NCBI GenBank assembly: GCA_028284345.1
Contig: JANQRY010000008.1
Location: 496,001 to 560,000 of the forward strand
Direction: 5' to 3'
DNA length: 64,000 nt
Source: Hyphococcus sp.
Lineage (GTDB): Bacteria; Pseudomonadota; Alphaproteobacteria; Caulobacterales; Parvularculaceae
Positions 4,706 to 43,145 of this stretch are shown here, piece after piece. Both the position numbers and the translations under genes were made by a program. The notes under the pieces were generated by a model that saw nothing but the letters and a program-made list of their open reading frames with translations, was not told where the DNA came from and did no database searches. Position 1 is the first letter of the stretch, and every line of letters begins with the position of its first letter.

Positions 4706-4780
4706 GCGGGCGTAGCTCAGGGGTAGAGCATCACCTTGCCAAGGTGAGGGTCGTGCGTTCGAATCGCATCGCCCGCTCCA
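4706..4780 (+). tRNA. tRNA-Gly (GCC)
   Basis: A 75-nt cloverleaf can be folded: acceptor gcgggcg/cgcccgc, discriminator T and an encoded CCA. The anticodon arm is tcacc-ttgccaa-ggtga with anticodon GCC, and the T-arm contains gttcgaatc. The 3' end from 4767 doubles as the island attachment core, and integration leaves the tRNA intact on this side. Confidence 0.96.
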
Positions 4781-31871: not shown

Positions 31872-33182
31872 TCAGACACGCCCGCGCAGTTCATCTCCAA
31901 GGGTTCGCAGTGCGGTCGCATTCCCTTCGAGATCATCAAAGGCGTAGGGATTAAGGAATTGCCGTCCCCATAAGAGGTTGCGGTCTACTTCGGAGAGTTC
32001 GGCTTCGGCGCATACAGCCTCCCAGTGCTCGCCGATGAAGCGGATTTGACCTTCGGCGATGGCAAGCGCCTCATCATCGGACAAAAGAAAATGGTGAGCC
32101 GCGTCAAGGCAGGCGCTGATCCGGCTCATGCGCTCATTGTCGTGAATCAGCATGGCCTGACTTGCTTCTCGCCCGTTGCGCCCTTGCGGACAGATATCAT
32201 AAGCCGGCGTGAGGGTAAGCATTTCGCCGTTCCAGAACGCGGCGTGATTGCGGGCGTGATCGTCCGTATTGCCGGAAAGAATGTTGAACGTAAGACGCCC
32301 ATAGAGCTCGCGCAGCGTATCCTTTGGGTCAGTAAAGCGGCGGCGAATGATTTCCGCCAAATCCTGATAGCTGGCATAGCGCGCCATCATTTCATCAAGC
32401 GATAAAATGGTGAGGGCCGAGACCATTAGCTTTCGGCTCCAACTACTACCAGCGCGCTCACGATCAAATCTTTCGATCAAGAGGACATCTTTTCCAGATG
32501 CGCTTGTGACGGACACCTCAGCCACATTCAGTCCGGCCAATTTTGCAAGACGCATGGCGATGAATTCAGCCTTTACAACGCTGTAGAGGTCGTTGGAAGC
32601 AGAAAACTTGGCGACATATTTTTTATCGCCATCCACAATCATCGCTTTGGGACGCGCGCCGCCGATGGAACTGCCGTGATACAGGGCCTGTTCAAGTTCC
32701 GGGGTTAAAGGAATACCTTTTTCAACAAGCTCGGCGGCCTGAGTGAGTTCTTCCAGACTTGCGTTCTTGGGCGAGCGCGGAACGTACTCGCTCGGCGAGC
32801 GCTGAAAATCGAGCGCGCCAATGCGATCTGATCCGGACTCCAGTAAAAAGCCGAGTTCGGAAAGCTCGGTTTCATCAATTGCCTTTCCTTTAACGCCAAA
32901 CTTCCGGTTTAAAATGACGCGCCGTCCCCATGCATCGGGCGCGGCGTCGCGAATGCTGCTTGGCATTGTGAGCCCGTCAGGCAATGGCAGTTCGCCTGCG
33001 CGAAGCGGCAATTCCGGCAGATAAATCGGAATGGCGTTATCCCGCTCCAGATAGGATTTACCGTAGTTGAAGATCAGCAATTGCGGACTGCCGACAGCAT
33101 GCAAACGGCCGGCGACAACCGGCTCGGTTTCACCGGGCAGCCATATCCATACAAAGGCTTCTTCGTAAGCATCAGAACTCAT
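31872..33182 (-). CDS. hipA: HipA-family serine/threonine kinase toxin
   Basis: The 436-residue protein contains the HipA N-terminal subdomain and kinase core: GSSIGGARPKA (170-180), catalytic loop NTDDHARNH (305-313) and YDICP (329-332) as the DFG equivalent. In E. coli HipA phosphorylates glutamyl-tRNA synthetase and causes persistence. All key residues are present. It overlaps the upstream HTH gene by 11 bp, the usual hipBA order. Confidence 0.9.
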   Translation of the reverse strand: MSSDAYEEAFVWIWLPGETEPVVAGRLHAVGSPQLLIFNYGKSYLERDNAIPIYLPELPLRAGELPLPDGLTMPSSIRDAAPDAWGRRVILNRKFGVKGKAIDETELSELGFLLESGSDRIGALDFQRSPSEYVPRSPKNASLEELTQAAELVEKGIPLTPELEQALYHGSSIGGARPKAMIVDGDKKYVAKFSASNDLYSVVKAEFIAMRLAKLAGLNVAEVSVTSASGKDVLLIERFDRERAGSSWSRKLMVSALTILSLDEMMARYASYQDLAEIIRRRFTDPKDTLRELYGRLTFNILSGNTDDHARNHAAFWNGEMLTLTPAYDICPQGRNGREASQAMLIHDNERMSRISACLDAAHHFLLSDDEALAIAEGQIRFIGEHWEAVCAEAELSEVDRNLLWGRQFLNPYAFDDLEGNATALRTLGDELRGRV

Positions 33183-33510
33183 CGCGCGCGCCCTTTGTGG
33201 ATTTGTGGATATGCTTTGGCAGTAGCGCGATCTTGTCTTCGGTCCGCTCGATCTGCATGGTCAAACGCCCGTCGTCGGCATCAAACAGATTGACGCCAAC
33301 GATTGTGGCCGCCTCAAAGACAATGCCGATTTCTACTTTCGGATCGCCGCGCTCAATGCGCTGAAGGGTTTTCCTTGAAACGCCAGTGCGCTCAGCCAGC
33401 TCTTCAGCCGTAAGCTTTCGTTCCTTGCGCCCAAGACGGATCAGCCGGCCCAAAAGCAGGGCGGCTTCGGTCGTGCGCTTGGAATATGTGCGCTTTTGAA
33501 TTCTAGGCAT
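33172..33510 (-). CDS. hipB: HipB-like HTH antitoxin
   Basis: The 112-residue XRE protein has the HTH LTAEELAERTGVSRKTLQRIERGDPKVEIGIVFEAATIVGV. The start is ATG 33510 (MPRIQKRTYSKRT); the 17 upstream codons in the track run into operator sequence. It lies directly ahead of hipA and should neutralize it and repress the promoter through the four repeats at 33524-33651. Confidence 0.88.
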   Translation of the reverse strand: MPRIQKRTYSKRTTEAALLLGRLIRLGRKERKLTAEELAERTGVSRKTLQRIERGDPKVEIGIVFEAATIVGVNLFDADDGRLTMQIERTEDKIALLPKHIHKSTKGARDEF

Positions 33511-33523
33511 TTCACGCTCAAAT

Positions 33524-33651
33524 GGTTCATCTACTGCCCATATCACCCTGATATGGATCATCTATGACTCATGGTACGGAATTCAATCAAAAAAGTCAAT
33601 AAATGGGTCATCTATAACCCGCATCTGGACAGTATGAGTCATAGATGACTC
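33524..33651. promoter_or_regulatory. hipBA operator array
   Basis: Four related 16-bp dyads upstream of hipB: GGTTCATCTACTGCCC (33524), GGATCATCTATGACTC (33555), GGGTCATCTATAACCC (33605) and GAGTCATAGATGACTC (33636). The consensus is GRGTCATNNATRACYC. Starts are 31, 50 and 31 bp apart. They cover the hipB promoter region. Confidence 0.75.
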
Positions 33652-33709
33652 ACAATTATGAGCCTATTGCAATTATTGGTGCCGGCGCAGGGCGTCGGGT
33701 ACCGTCTGG

Positions 33710-34336
33710 TCAATTCACCAAATCGGCTTGCCACATGCGCTCGGCAATGGCGCGATCTTCCAACCCTTGGGCCGAAAGATAGACCGAAGTCGTCTCCAGA
33801 CTGGCATGCCCGAGCCATGCCTGAATGCGCGATTCCGGTACGTTTGAAACGGCGGCCTGAACGCCAAGCGCATGGCGCAATCCCCGCGCATTTGCGCGTG
33901 CGCCGGTTATCTCTGCAGCCTCCATGACTGTCTGAATAATTCGCCATCCCGTTGTGCGACTAAACGTAAACAAGGAAACACCGGCACCCTGATCCGGTTC
34001 CTCCTGCGCGGTGCGAATGTCATGAACAGAATCCAGGCGGCCCAACAAACAGGTGGGAACAGGAACGGCGCGAAAATGCCTGTTCTTCAATACGCCCCGT
34101 TTTTTCAGACTGCGGAATACGACCATACCTTCTGAAAAATCGACGTTCACCGCACACAGATTCAGCGCCTCGCTCGGCCGGCACCCGGTCCAGAAAATCA
34201 GCTCACAGAAGGTCTGATGTTTGGAATTATCCAGGATTGAAATGGCGTTAAGAAAACGGGCGCGCTCAGACCGCGAGAGATACTTTCGCTCTCCGGCGTA
34301 AGTAAAAAGGCTCATTCCCTTGAACGGCTTTGCCAC
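33710..34336 (-). CDS. Short tyrosine recombinase (FimB/FimE-sized)
   Basis: The 208-residue protein consists of the catalytic domain only, with TGCRPSEAL (Arg I), ARGLRHALG (His-x-x-Arg region, here R-x-L-R-H) and WLGHASLETTSVYL (His and Tyr). It lacks the N-terminal core-binding domain of phage integrases, as do the inversion recombinases FimB and FimE (about 200 residues). Two inverted-repeat sites lie 26 to 190 bp upstream of its start codon. It may be an invertase or resolvase rather than the element integrase. Confidence 0.82.
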   Translation of the reverse strand: MAKPFKGMSLFTYAGERKYLSRSERARFLNAISILDNSKHQTFCELIFWTGCRPSEALNLCAVNVDFSEGMVVFRSLKKRGVLKNRHFRAVPVPTCLLGRLDSVHDIRTAQEEPDQGAGVSLFTFSRTTGWRIIQTVMEAAEITGARANARGLRHALGVQAAVSNVPESRIQAWLGHASLETTSVYLSAQGLEDRAIAERMWQADLVN

Positions 34337-34361
34337 GCGGATACTCCTGTCGGCTTACGCA

Positions 34362-34521
34362 GATGAAACAAAATAGGGAATTTTGTTTCATCGCTTCACA
34401 CTCCCAGAGTTTCCGCCAGTTTCACCCGGATCACTGCGCGTTAATCACGCTTCTTGAAGCCCGAATCGTAAATCTTTTCTCAAAGAAATCAATGTTAGAA
34501 ACAAAATTCCCTATTCTGTTC
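34362..34521. repeat. Pair of inversely oriented recombinase-like sites
   Basis: Site 1 at 34362-34392 is GATGAAACAAAAT-AGGGA-ATTTTGTTTCATC, with perfect 13-bp arms and an asymmetric 5-bp spacer. Site 2 at 34498-34521 is GAAACAAAAT-TCCCT-ATTCTGTTC. Its spacer is the reverse complement, so the sites point in opposite directions and enclose about 105 bp. The minus strand inside carries TTGATT-16-TACGAT, a plausible promoter facing the recombinase gene. Confidence 0.65.
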
Positions 34522-34549
34522 AAAGCATTGGCGCCGTCATGTCTGGCAA

Positions 34550-34894
34550 ATGGCGTCTGTCATATCGCTCTCTGCCATGGTTGTTTTTGGGTGTAGTTCC
34601 GAAAGCGCAAAGGCCGAACAAACCAGTCAATTCACGGGTGAAGAATTCTTAACCTGGGATCGCGTCAATCAAGATTCCTTTATCGAGGTGTCAGTGACTA
34701 TGGCGGGAATTGTCTCGGGTCGCGCCCGAAAAGACATCTCCCGATGCATCGATGAATGGTATTCTCTTGAGGATGAAACGCGGCGCATGCGCAACGATTT
34801 CATTTTGAAAATTATTTCGGAAAATCCGACATATCACCCTCAAGGGGTAATTCTTGCAGTTTTAGAAGAGCAGTGCGGCTCGCTGCAAAATTGA
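34550..34894 (+). CDS. Small putative lipoprotein
   Basis: The 114-residue product begins MASVISLSAMVVFGCSSESAKAEQ, a short signal with a lipobox-like VFGC. The rest is soluble with two cysteines (ISRCIDEWY, LEEQCGS). No family is recognised. It diverges from the short recombinase with the inverted sites between them, so it is the natural candidate for the target of a promoter inversion. The lack of basic residues before the hydrophobic core makes the start uncertain. Confidence 0.5.
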   Translation: MASVISLSAMVVFGCSSESAKAEQTSQFTGEEFLTWDRVNQDSFIEVSVTMAGIVSGRARKDISRCIDEWYSLEDETRRMRNDFILKIISENPTYHPQGVILAVLEEQCGSLQN

Positions 34895-34896
34895 AA

Positions 34897-35604
34897 TTAG
34901 TCACCAAGTTTCGGTAGATCAATATCGGCAGATGCGTCATTCTGGATCGCTCTCGGCGGCTCGCCGTTTGATTGAAGCTCAAAAGTTTTCAATCCCGTTT
35001 CTATCTCTTGTTCCAACTCATCCAATCGTTCCTGAGACGGCGGATTGTGTTCATCTTCCAATTCACCGCGCGCCTTGCCAAGCGTATCAACCTGATACTC
35101 CCGCAAGTCATCAATACGTTTTTTCCGACTTTCAAATTCTTCAAAGCTCGGTGCATCATCTGGCCAGTCGATCCCAGCCGCGATGGCGGCATCGATAATT
35201 GCGCCATCCTCGGTGCGCACATTGCCGTCCTTGTCTCTGAACACGGCGCGGCCATCGGGAAGCTTCACGGCGCGGGCAATAATTTCTTCCAACGCTGCCT
35301 CGGCCTCAACCAGGGCGTTTTCTGTCAGCCTTTCAGCTTCCTCCAACAGGCCTTTCACGCGGGTGTAAGCTTTCGCGTATTCGGGGTCCTGCAGCATCGC
35401 CTGCAAGTTGGTGATAAGATCAACCGTCTCGGAAAAGCGTTTGGCTCTTTGACTACCGGTATCCGGGGCGTTCTGGCCCACACGCGGTAAAATGCGCCCA
35501 GTTTCACGTCCGGCAATAGCGTTTTGATGGTCGGAAAATGTTTCCGCCCTTAATTTTGCGCGCTGCATCGCTTTTATAAATTCATCATCACCGCCGTTAT
35601 TCAT
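34897..35604 (-). CDS. Hypothetical coiled-coil protein
   Basis: The 235-residue, strongly acidic and helical protein (RVKGLLEEAERLTENALVEAEAALEEIIARAVKLPDGRAVFRDKDGNVRTEDG) has no recognised family. The phrase AVKLPDGRAVFRDKDGNVRTEDG is a small beta element seen in plasmid-borne proteins of unknown role. It carries a shared island promoter box with TATACT 7 bp before its ATG. Confidence 0.6.
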   Translation of the reverse strand: MNNGGDDEFIKAMQRAKLRAETFSDHQNAIAGRETGRILPRVGQNAPDTGSQRAKRFSETVDLITNLQAMLQDPEYAKAYTRVKGLLEEAERLTENALVEAEAALEEIIARAVKLPDGRAVFRDKDGNVRTEDGAIIDAAIAAGIDWPDDAPSFEEFESRKKRIDDLREYQVDTLGKARGELEDEHNPPSQERLDELEQEIETGLKTFELQSNGEPPRAIQNDASADIDLPKLGD

Positions 35605-37281: not shown

Positions 37282-38079
37282 ATGAATGTTCATGTGAAAA
37301 AAGATAAGATCGTTGATGCATTGGCAAGTGAGCAAAAAACGCGCTCATTGGCGTTCGGTATATCGCCGCATTTGCCACTTTTGAATGCTGACCAATGTCT
37401 ACAGATTGCTCGCCAGATCATCGCTCATGATCACGATGAATACATCGTGCCAATCGAACTATCGGCACATAAGGCAATCGAAATTGTGACTCACCGGCAT
37501 GTATTGCAACCGATGAGTTCCAAGTTGTTGGCCCAATTCATTTTCAAGAATTCGGCGATATTTGATGGAAAAAGCGTTTATGATATTGGAACGGGAACTG
37601 GCGTTCAGGCGATTGCGGCAGGACTGTCTGGCGCAAAGCATGTGCTGTGTACTGACATATCAGATTATGCGCTGACATGTGCAGATCATAATCTATCAAA
37701 TTATTTGGACAATGACAGCTACTCACTTGTTTCAGCAGATTTGATGTCAAGTAAAGACATTGATGGGGCAGCCGATGCCATTGTATTTGCACAACCATAT
37801 TTCGGTGATAATCCGTTGGCAGACTACAACGTGACAACGGGAATGCTGAATAACACGCAACTAATTAAGCGATTTTTTGATCAGTGCGATGTCATGCTTT
37901 CCCGAACTGGAAAAGTTCTGATGATGTCTTGGGATTTCGCTGGACCGACAAATAATCCTTGCGAATATATTGGTGAACACTCAAAATTTGAGATTGAGCT
38001 TACTGAAACATTTGAAAACAAGTCGGGCATACAGTCTGGTGATTTTCACATTCACGTTTTGAGGCGAAAAGCTCCTTAG
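37282..38079 (+). CDS. Class I SAM-dependent methyltransferase
   Basis: The 265-residue protein has motif I SVYDIGTGTGVQAIAAGLSGAKHVLCTDIS and, in place of NPPY, FAQPYFGDNPL, resembling the HemK/PrmA/RsmC group that methylates proteins or RNA. The N-terminal part (ISPHLPLLNADQCLQIARQIIAHDHDEYIVPIELS) may bind substrate. It converges on the ABC ATPase gene with a 4-bp overlap. A role together with the ABC system is suggested only by location. Confidence 0.72.
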   Translation: MNVHVKKDKIVDALASEQKTRSLAFGISPHLPLLNADQCLQIARQIIAHDHDEYIVPIELSAHKAIEIVTHRHVLQPMSSKLLAQFIFKNSAIFDGKSVYDIGTGTGVQAIAAGLSGAKHVLCTDISDYALTCADHNLSNYLDNDSYSLVSADLMSSKDIDGAADAIVFAQPYFGDNPLADYNVTTGMLNNTQLIKRFFDQCDVMLSRTGKVLMMSWDFAGPTNNPCEYIGEHSKFEIELTETFENKSGIQSGDFHIHVLRRKAP

Positions 38080-41844: not shown

Positions 41845-41949
41845 TGGCAGGAGCAGAGGGACTTGAACCCCCGACCTACGGTTTTGGAGGGCGTATACAA
41901 AGCCCAGAAATCAGCGGGTTACAGAGGCCGCGCCACATTCACGCCACAT
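41701..41949. repeat. GCCACAT boxes around tRNA-Trp-like attP
   Basis: GCCACAT occurs at 41701, 41711, 41932 and 41943 on the plus strand, and inverted (ATGTGGC) at 41775-41781. The boxes flank the tRNA-Trp fragment on both sides, as arm-type integrase sites flank an attP core. The last two fall in the 3' end of the integrase gene. Confidence 0.6.
41845..41889 (-). other. tRNA-Trp 3' fragment, candidate attP core
   Basis: On the minus strand: CTCCAAAACCGTAGGTCGGGGGTTCAAGTCCC...CTGCCA. This is the anticodon loop with CCA anticodon, a T-arm, the acceptor 3' strand and CCA of a tRNA-Trp, about 45 nt, without the 5' half. It lies 30 bp from the 3' end of integrase 41919-43145. No intact tRNA-Trp is in the window. 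Confidence 0.75.
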
Positions 41950-43145
41950 GGTTTTTGGGATACGCCGAGCAAGCCGATCATTCCGGCTTGATCTTTCTCC
42001 GAAAGTTCTCTTCGTTCGATCAAATGACCGTAATTATTTAATGTCGTCTCGATGCGCGTGTGTCCCATCCGTTTTTGAATTCGTTTTAGGTCAAAACCCT
42101 GGTCGATAATCACGGACGCATAAAAATGGCGAAGTGCATAAGGCGTGAATTTAGGTTTCGCAATCAATGCGCCATCAATTTCTTCTTCCTCAATTAGTCC
42201 TGCCTCTTCACAGGCGCGAAAAAATCCACGCTTTCGCCAGTTGTCGATACTTTGCCAATGTCCTCTATTTGTTGGGAACACAAGATCATGTGGGCTGGAA
42301 AAATTAATGCGTTTTACGGCGTGCTTCACCATGTCCATGACATCAGCGCTCGCCGGAATTGAGCGGCAGCCTGCCGGTGTTTTGGTAGCGGATATCGTGT
42401 TACCGGGACGTTTGACGGCGCGGTCTACAAAATAGCTGGCCTCGCGAAGATTGAATGTCGGGAATGCAAGATACTCTTGCGGCCGCATCCCTGAGTCTGC
42501 CGCCATGTAGAGCATCGGCCGGTAGCGTTGCCAACTACTCGCAATCTGATTGTTTTTGGAGTTTGCCAGTTTGTCGGCGGCGGAAAGAAGCGCCCAGACT
42601 TCCTTTTCAGTAGGAATTTCCATTTCCTGCTTTTCGTGCGCATTGGAGCGAATGCTCACGCCGGAAGCGATGTTGCTTGCGATGATCCCGCGAAGCGCCA
42701 ATTCATTCATTATTGTTGAAAACGAAGAAAGCACCTTCCGAGCCTGATCCCGGCTTGCGCAATTCTCCAAAAGCCAGGACTTAAAATTCACGATGTCTGG
42801 CGTCGTCAGATGCTGTAATGGTTTGCTCCAGCCATAGCGCTGAATGATTTCACCGCGATATGCGTATTGTTTGAGCGTGTACGGCGTAACCGGTTCATCT
42901 CTTTTTGAGGTTCCCTGTTTTTCACAGATGCGAAGCCAGAGCTCTATCGCCTCGTCGATTTCAGTGATCTTGGGTAACGGGCCGCACAAGCCTTCTTCAA
43001 TATCTTTTTCAGCTTTGAACCTTTGCGCCTGTTTGGCTTTGGCAAAGGTCTTGTAGGCAAATCCGCTTTTCTTGGATTTGTCGATATATCTTACCTGATA
43101 TCCGATGCCGCCATCGGAATTTACTCGTCTCCTGATATCTGCCAT
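41919..43145 (-). CDS. Tyrosine integrase (tRNA-Trp type), internal
   Basis: The 408-residue phage-type integrase has an N-terminal arm-binding segment (GGIGYQVRYIDKSKKSGFAYKTFAKAKQA), a core-binding domain and a catalytic domain with SGMRPQEYL, YALRHFYAS and MGHTRIETTLNNYGH (Arg, His-x-x-Arg type and Tyr). All catalytic residues appear present. It is not the integrase of the present insertion; the tRNA-Trp fragment next to it suggests its own former target. Its ATG is preceded by TATACT at 6 bp in the shared promoter box. Confidence 0.87.
   Translation of the reverse strand: MADIRRRVNSDGGIGYQVRYIDKSKKSGFAYKTFAKAKQAQRFKAEKDIEEGLCGPLPKITEIDEAIELWLRICEKQGTSKRDEPVTPYTLKQYAYRGEIIQRYGWSKPLQHLTTPDIVNFKSWLLENCASRDQARKVLSSFSTIMNELALRGIIASNIASGVSIRSNAHEKQEMEIPTEKEVWALLSAADKLANSKNNQIASSWQRYRPMLYMAADSGMRPQEYLAFPTFNLREASYFVDRAVKRPGNTISATKTPAGCRSIPASADVMDMVKHAVKRINFSSPHDLVFPTNRGHWQSIDNWRKRGFFRACEEAGLIEEEEIDGALIAKPKFTPYALRHFYASVIIDQGFDLKRIQKRMGHTRIETTLNNYGHLIERRELSEKDQAGMIGLLGVSQKPCGVNVARPL

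Follow-up and report, generated by a model that had tools for sequence, protein, structure and literature searches.

The locus at positions 34362-34523 raises the question of whether a small tyrosine recombinase and the two facing palindromes beside it constitute a DNA-inversion switch, and of what such a switch would control. The window, which is the whole stretch of Hyphococcus sp. DNA that was analysed (64,000 nucleotides), contains this arrangement once. The answer favoured here, with a probability of about 0.84, is a two-state switch in which the recombinase would invert a 134-bp segment and so move a promoter, a Shine-Dalgarno sequence and a start codon to the gene of an exported protein. 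The features involved are as follows.

33710-34336, minus strand: small tyrosine recombinase, presumed invertase, 208 amino acids (Pfam Phage_integrase, E 4.5e-14)
34266-34391, minus strand: 41-codon leader frame read from the switch start codon in the OFF state, overlapping the recombinase start out of frame
34362-34392, no strand: recombination site A, a 13-5-13 dyad (GATGAAACAAAAT AGGGA ATTTTGTTTCATC) that contains the switch start codon
34377-34510, no strand: putative invertible segment, about 134 bp as computed between the presumed crossover centres
34397-34405, minus strand: Shine-Dalgarno block GGGAGTGTG, conserved and preceding the start codon in site A
34465-34492, minus strand: promoter in the segment, TTGATT (34487-34492), 16 nt, TACGAT (34465-34470), now directed toward the recombinase
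34497-34523, no strand: recombination site B (AGAAACAAAAT TCCCT ATTCTGTTCAA), the same site as A in inverted orientation
34499-34894, plus strand: exported-protein (lipoprotein-like) gene, with an open frame that begins in site B and that the inverted state would extend to MKQNSLFCSKHWRRHVWQMASVISLSAMVVFGC followed by SSES...
34897-35604, minus strand: convergent partner gene, 235 amino acids, largely coiled coil, with a conserved position next to the exported-protein gene

The recombinase begins at a GTG codon (34334-34336) with its own Shine-Dalgarno sequence, AGGAG (34344-34348). The Phage_integrase match spans residues 20-189, so the protein consists of the catalytic domain only, as a first-pass annotation of this DNA had stated. 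Residues R53, K78, R154, H177 and Y186 are invariant across 26 aligned recombinases, and the first histidine of the HxxR motif is replaced by K or R throughout the family; the domain together with the R-K-(H/K)xxR-H-Y set places the protein in the tyrosine recombinase superfamily. Its earlier description as FimB-like is apt for its size (about 200 amino acids, without an N-terminal core-binding domain) and presumed mechanism but not for its sequence family, the scores against PRK09870 and PRK09871 being 21.1 and 28.9 bits, far below the NCBIfam cut-offs of 221 and 222 for FimB/FimE-type proteins. Nearest in sequence are plasmid-borne and Xer-type recombinases, and the closest solved structures are Xer recombinases. 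A phage origin of the recombinase was considered and rejected, with no match in 50,697 phage records and none in viral contigs.

Sites A and B form a 23-nt inverted repeat of 96% identity (arms 34367-34389 and 34498-34520, 108 nt apart). It is the only one of that quality in the 64 kb (23 nt with no more than one mismatch, within 700 bp), repeats of its quality are absent from 40 first-order Markov shuffles of the window, and a search of the organism's own genome found the site pair in a single copy. The two dyads with facing spacers AGGGA and TCCCT that had been noticed earlier are real features of the locus, site A also being delimited as 34364-34390; they had been described as facing each other across about 105 bp, and the segment measures about 134 bp from crossover to crossover.

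Comparison with relatives is the principal evidence that these palindromes are recombination sites. Recombinases with about 35-59% identity were found in 17 of 398 genomes of the same order (its own included), 15 of 385 genomes of the class and 12 of 399 genomes of the phylum, and also on plasmids (Acetobacteraceae, Rhodobacterales, Shewanella and others), where rep and par genes are often adjacent. Up to 11 kb of surrounding DNA was taken for most of the chromosomal loci. Type I loci (the window and about 20 others) carry a pair of inverted sites, 123-148 bp apart, upstream of the recombinase gene; in type II loci (16) the inverted sites lie on either side of the recombinase gene itself, at a distance of 650-740 bp; in the remaining loci, on plasmids and similar, there is either a single good site or an additional one whose spacer does not match. 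Within type I, the window and six loci (L046, L047, L048, L049, L113, L114) constitute type IA, which corresponds to one recombinase clade (support 99/95). The two best sites of each of 55 loci were chosen by their arms alone, using a leave-one-out model. The 5-bp spacers of the chosen sites are exact reverse complements in 36 of the 55 loci, the window with its AGGGA/TCCCT pair among them, direct repeats in none and unrelated in 19, compared with a chance expectation for exact reverse complements of about one in a thousand per locus. Between loci the spacer varies (AGGGA, GTATG, TGGCT, TGGGA, AGGTA, TACCA, GGTAC and others); a further pair with matched spacers, that of L047 (ACCAC/GTGGT), was overlooked by the automatic choice of sites. 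Within 33 pairs, spacer positions match in 165 of 165 cases and arm positions in 532 of 726 (73%). Were the palindromes operators or hairpins, conservation would be expected in the arms; a requirement for the spacer is peculiar to strand exchange, and the closer match of the spacers than of the arms points to strand exchange between inverted sites.

Several loci outside type I have peculiarities of their own. In type II loci (L002, L051-L053, L064-L065, L118, L122, L123, L133, L135-L136, L138-L140) the enzyme's own gene would invert, and in one of them, L002, the frame of a flanking exported gene likewise continues through the site. L131 has a 122-bp exact inverted repeat around a type II recombinase, far longer than the sites. 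In five plasmid-type loci (L026, L028, L050, L117, L137) a palindromic core site precedes the recombinase start by 75-107 bp, and another site, perhaps an operator, lies at the start or close to it and has a 6-bp spacer that does not match.

The content of the segment indicates what inversion would accomplish. When the inner segments of the seven type IA loci are aligned in the direction of the recombinase, they share a -35 element TTGA, a -10 element of the TTACGAT/TAACGT type, a leader, the block GGAGTGTG and then [A/G/T]TG AAA CA, which is the beginning of the recombination site itself. The promoter TTGATT-16-TACGAT, which the first-pass annotation placed inside the segment and facing the recombinase, is present as described, with its TTGA and -10 positions conserved in the seven diverged loci, though a plain sigma-70 consensus scan does not pick it up and it is not a strong consensus match. 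The switch start codon is an ATG inside site A (34389-34391, minus strand); at the equivalent position of site B in the present orientation (34496-34498) the sequence reads TAG. In the present orientation the frame opened by the switch start codon is a leader of 32-54 codons in the seven loci, overlapping the recombinase start out of frame. The segment is thus predicted to move more than a promoter, carrying a ribosome-binding site and a start codon as well.

Inversion in silico joins the switch start codon to the frame of the exported protein in all seven type IA loci, and in all seven the fusion completes a signal peptide (for example, MKQNSLFCSKHWRRHVWQMASVISLSAMVVFGC in the window and MKQNSQYWCPPKKRFGFSKLKLAAVFGLISVLSIISTPAYA in L048); the seven cases, which have a common ancestry, are not entirely independent. 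The Shine-Dalgarno energy at the ON start codon is -7.7 to -9.7 kcal/mol in six of the seven loci, versus -3.3 kcal/mol or weaker for the best in-frame start of the same six loci in their present orientation; the exception is L114, with a weak Shine-Dalgarno sequence at the ON start. Taken with the TAG at the start-codon position, these energies describe a target gene that acquires its start signals only through inversion of the segment, as in a vsa-type switch, and the conserved promoter, Shine-Dalgarno block and start codon all lie inside the segment with the in-frame target just outside it. The earlier proposal that inversion would aim the promoter at the lipoprotein gene is supported by this reconstruction, but the gene would not begin at 34550, as had been supposed; in the inverted state it would begin upstream. 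The exported proteins of L047, L048, L113 and L114 have 33-44% identity to that of the window, and those of L046 and L049 have no detectable relationship to it.

All seven type IA loci are in the OFF orientation and none is ON, in assemblies that represent each species by one genome and in which a minority orientation is invisible. Among type I loci no close copies in opposite orientation were found when inner segments were compared both ways, related pairs always having the same orientation; one inverted match between L063 and L130 (z 5.2) was judged to be due to chance. Comparative evidence of opposite orientations comes from two close type II relatives, whose elements are as follows.

L136, 4977-6605, and L138, 251-1924 (recombinase on the minus strand): type II recombinase element, in opposite orientation in the two loci relative to the common flank

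A flank of about 1 kb, 78% identical between these two loci, lies to the right of the element in one and to the left in the other; the break coincides exactly with the sites, and the outer arm CTGGACAG changes side too. The second flanks are not homologous, that of L138 carrying IS21-like istA/istB genes, so that the comparison consists of one flank and a site arm.

The mechanism proposed for the window is that the recombinase would bind both palindromic sites and exchange strands within their common 5-bp spacer; because the spacers lie in opposite orientation, the intervening segment would invert. In the present, OFF state, the promoter, 5' leader, Shine-Dalgarno sequence and start codon would serve the recombinase side, and the exported-protein gene would have no usable start. 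In the ON state, the same elements would be joined in frame to the exported protein, whose signal peptide would receive its opening codons from them. Site A lies just 25 bp or so from the recombinase start; to judge from this anatomy, the recombinase would probably lose its promoter, and with it its expression, in the ON state. A point against the proposal is that a segment of 134 bp is below the DNA persistence length, so that inversion would probably need a DNA-bending protein. The invertible promoter switch of the first-pass annotation is supported by the matched inverted spacers and the conserved frame; inversion in this organism, by this recombinase and with an effect on expression, is what we infer from them.

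The uniformly OFF state of the seven genomes suggests that the ON state is rare or costly. A tentative extension, against which the odds are somewhat weighted, is that the switch silences itself: since the sole promoter sits in the segment, the recombinase would be made only in the OFF state, and a flip to ON would start production of the exported protein while stopping that of the recombinase. The ON state would then be rare, lasting and possibly terminal, confined to a small subpopulation, which would account for all seven genomes being OFF. The control of the exported protein and its partner by switches of two unrelated recombinase families would imply, on the same reading, strong selection for cell-to-cell heterogeneity.

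The exported protein is predicted to be small and helical (AlphaFold pLDDT 87), with two conserved cysteines, and has a weak fold resemblance to the HdeA-like structure 1dj8 (probability 0.60, TM (target) 0.60, E 2.8). Neither it nor its partner has a match in Pfam, NCBIfam or PADLOC or a fold match below E 0.001, and the exported protein was not found on plasmids. The corresponding positions in L046/L049 and L056/L059-L061 are taken by different exported and partner genes. In eight loci where this tyrosine recombinase is not nearby (L143, L145, L146, L147, L149, L150, L151, L152), the same exported/partner pair lies beside a divergent serine recombinase (Resolvase domain) in the same position. 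These enzymes are of the Hin/Pin/TnpR type, a family unrelated to the recombinase of the window, and in only three of the eight loci (L143, L150, L151) is the exported gene preceded by significant inverted site-like repeats, spaced 95-129 bp apart.

Three other explanations of the locus have to be weighed against the inversion switch. A domesticated plasmid multimer resolvase, whose two sites would be a core site and an operator that represses the recombinase promoter, would fit the position of the nearest annotated relatives beside plasmid rep and par genes with one good palindromic site upstream, as well as the second site about 100 bp away, its spacer not matching, in some plasmid-type relatives. 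This is unlikely: neither resolution nor operators need the inverted matching spacers of the 36 loci that include the window, and the continuity of the frame into a headless signal peptide would be left unexplained. Slightly less probable again is a fixed regulatory locus that inverted in the past and does not flip here now, its spacers being kept matched by gene conversion or hairpin formation. The single orientation of the seven type IA loci, with segments of 132-136 bp, is what such a locus would exhibit; yet the ON frame has been kept although the exported proteins are only 33-44% identical to that of the window, the two spacers of each locus stay identical even as they drift from one locus to another, and the catalytic residues of the recombinase are intact.

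It is most improbable that the recombinase and sites are an insertion-sequence-like mobile cassette with the inverted sites as its ends. Such a cassette is suggested by the type II relatives, in which the recombinase gene alone lies between the inverted sites, and by the mostly unrelated flanks of six close relatives, but type I sites, including those of the window, enclose only the promoter segment, and the exported gene and its partner are conserved outside them. The inversion switch is thus retained as the reading of the locus.

Switches of this kind are already known; what is new here is the enzyme family, the self-matching readable spacers, the start codon within the site, the extreme shortness of the segment and the cargo. 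In the fimS/FimB-FimE system of Escherichia coli type 1 fimbriae, a small catalytic-domain-only tyrosine recombinase adjoins a short invertible promoter segment. The sequence of the window reveals the same juxtaposition of such a recombinase with a short promoter-carrying segment; unlike fimS, the sites of its family are palindromes of about 11-5-11 with locus-specific spacers, and the segment also carries a start codon and faces its own recombinase. The vsa locus has one expression site and a choice among several silent genes. In Mycoplasma pulmonis, inversion at vsa puts a promoter, ribosome-binding site and 5' end of an ORF before a headless surface-protein gene, according to the summary in PMC3047005. 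The window is closer to vsa than to fimS in that its segment would bring a promoter, ribosome-binding site and 5' coding end to a headless gene, and differs in that it would toggle a single exported-protein gene with a segment some 134 bp long, in Alphaproteobacteria and with unrelated cargo. The small tyrosine recombinases beside rep/par on plasmids (Komagataeibacter, Acetobacter, Thioclava, Shewanella and others) belong to the same family, at about 37-50% identity and with the same type of palindromic site upstream, but they differ in having mostly a single site, so that their role is presumably to resolve multimers and not to invert DNA.

Little has been documented of DNA-inversion switches in Alphaproteobacteria; a genome-wide survey found none in the four members that it sampled (PMC5903667). 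The family described here is widespread in that class, and its crossover sequence is recognisable from genome sequence. The ON state can be predicted from sequence to the codon, and the target gene is likely to be mis-annotated at its start because that start lies across the inversion. The switch would permit inversion of a segment below the DNA persistence length to be examined, and the exported protein is seemingly kept under stochastic control by two unrelated enzymes.

Three other features of the window may be noted. A full-length tyrosine integrase of 408 amino acids (41919-43145) has no tRNA gene nearby, the only one in the window being tRNA-Gly at 4706-4780, and possibly marks an island. 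A methyltransferase-like protein (37282-38079) with a partial PADLOC mad2 match (E 1e-13) is encoded beside ABC transporter genes. A hipBA-like toxin-antitoxin pair (31872-33561 and 33521-33652) is preceded by a 20-nt repeat (like TATGGATCATCTATGACTCA) in four copies, which are presumably operator sites.
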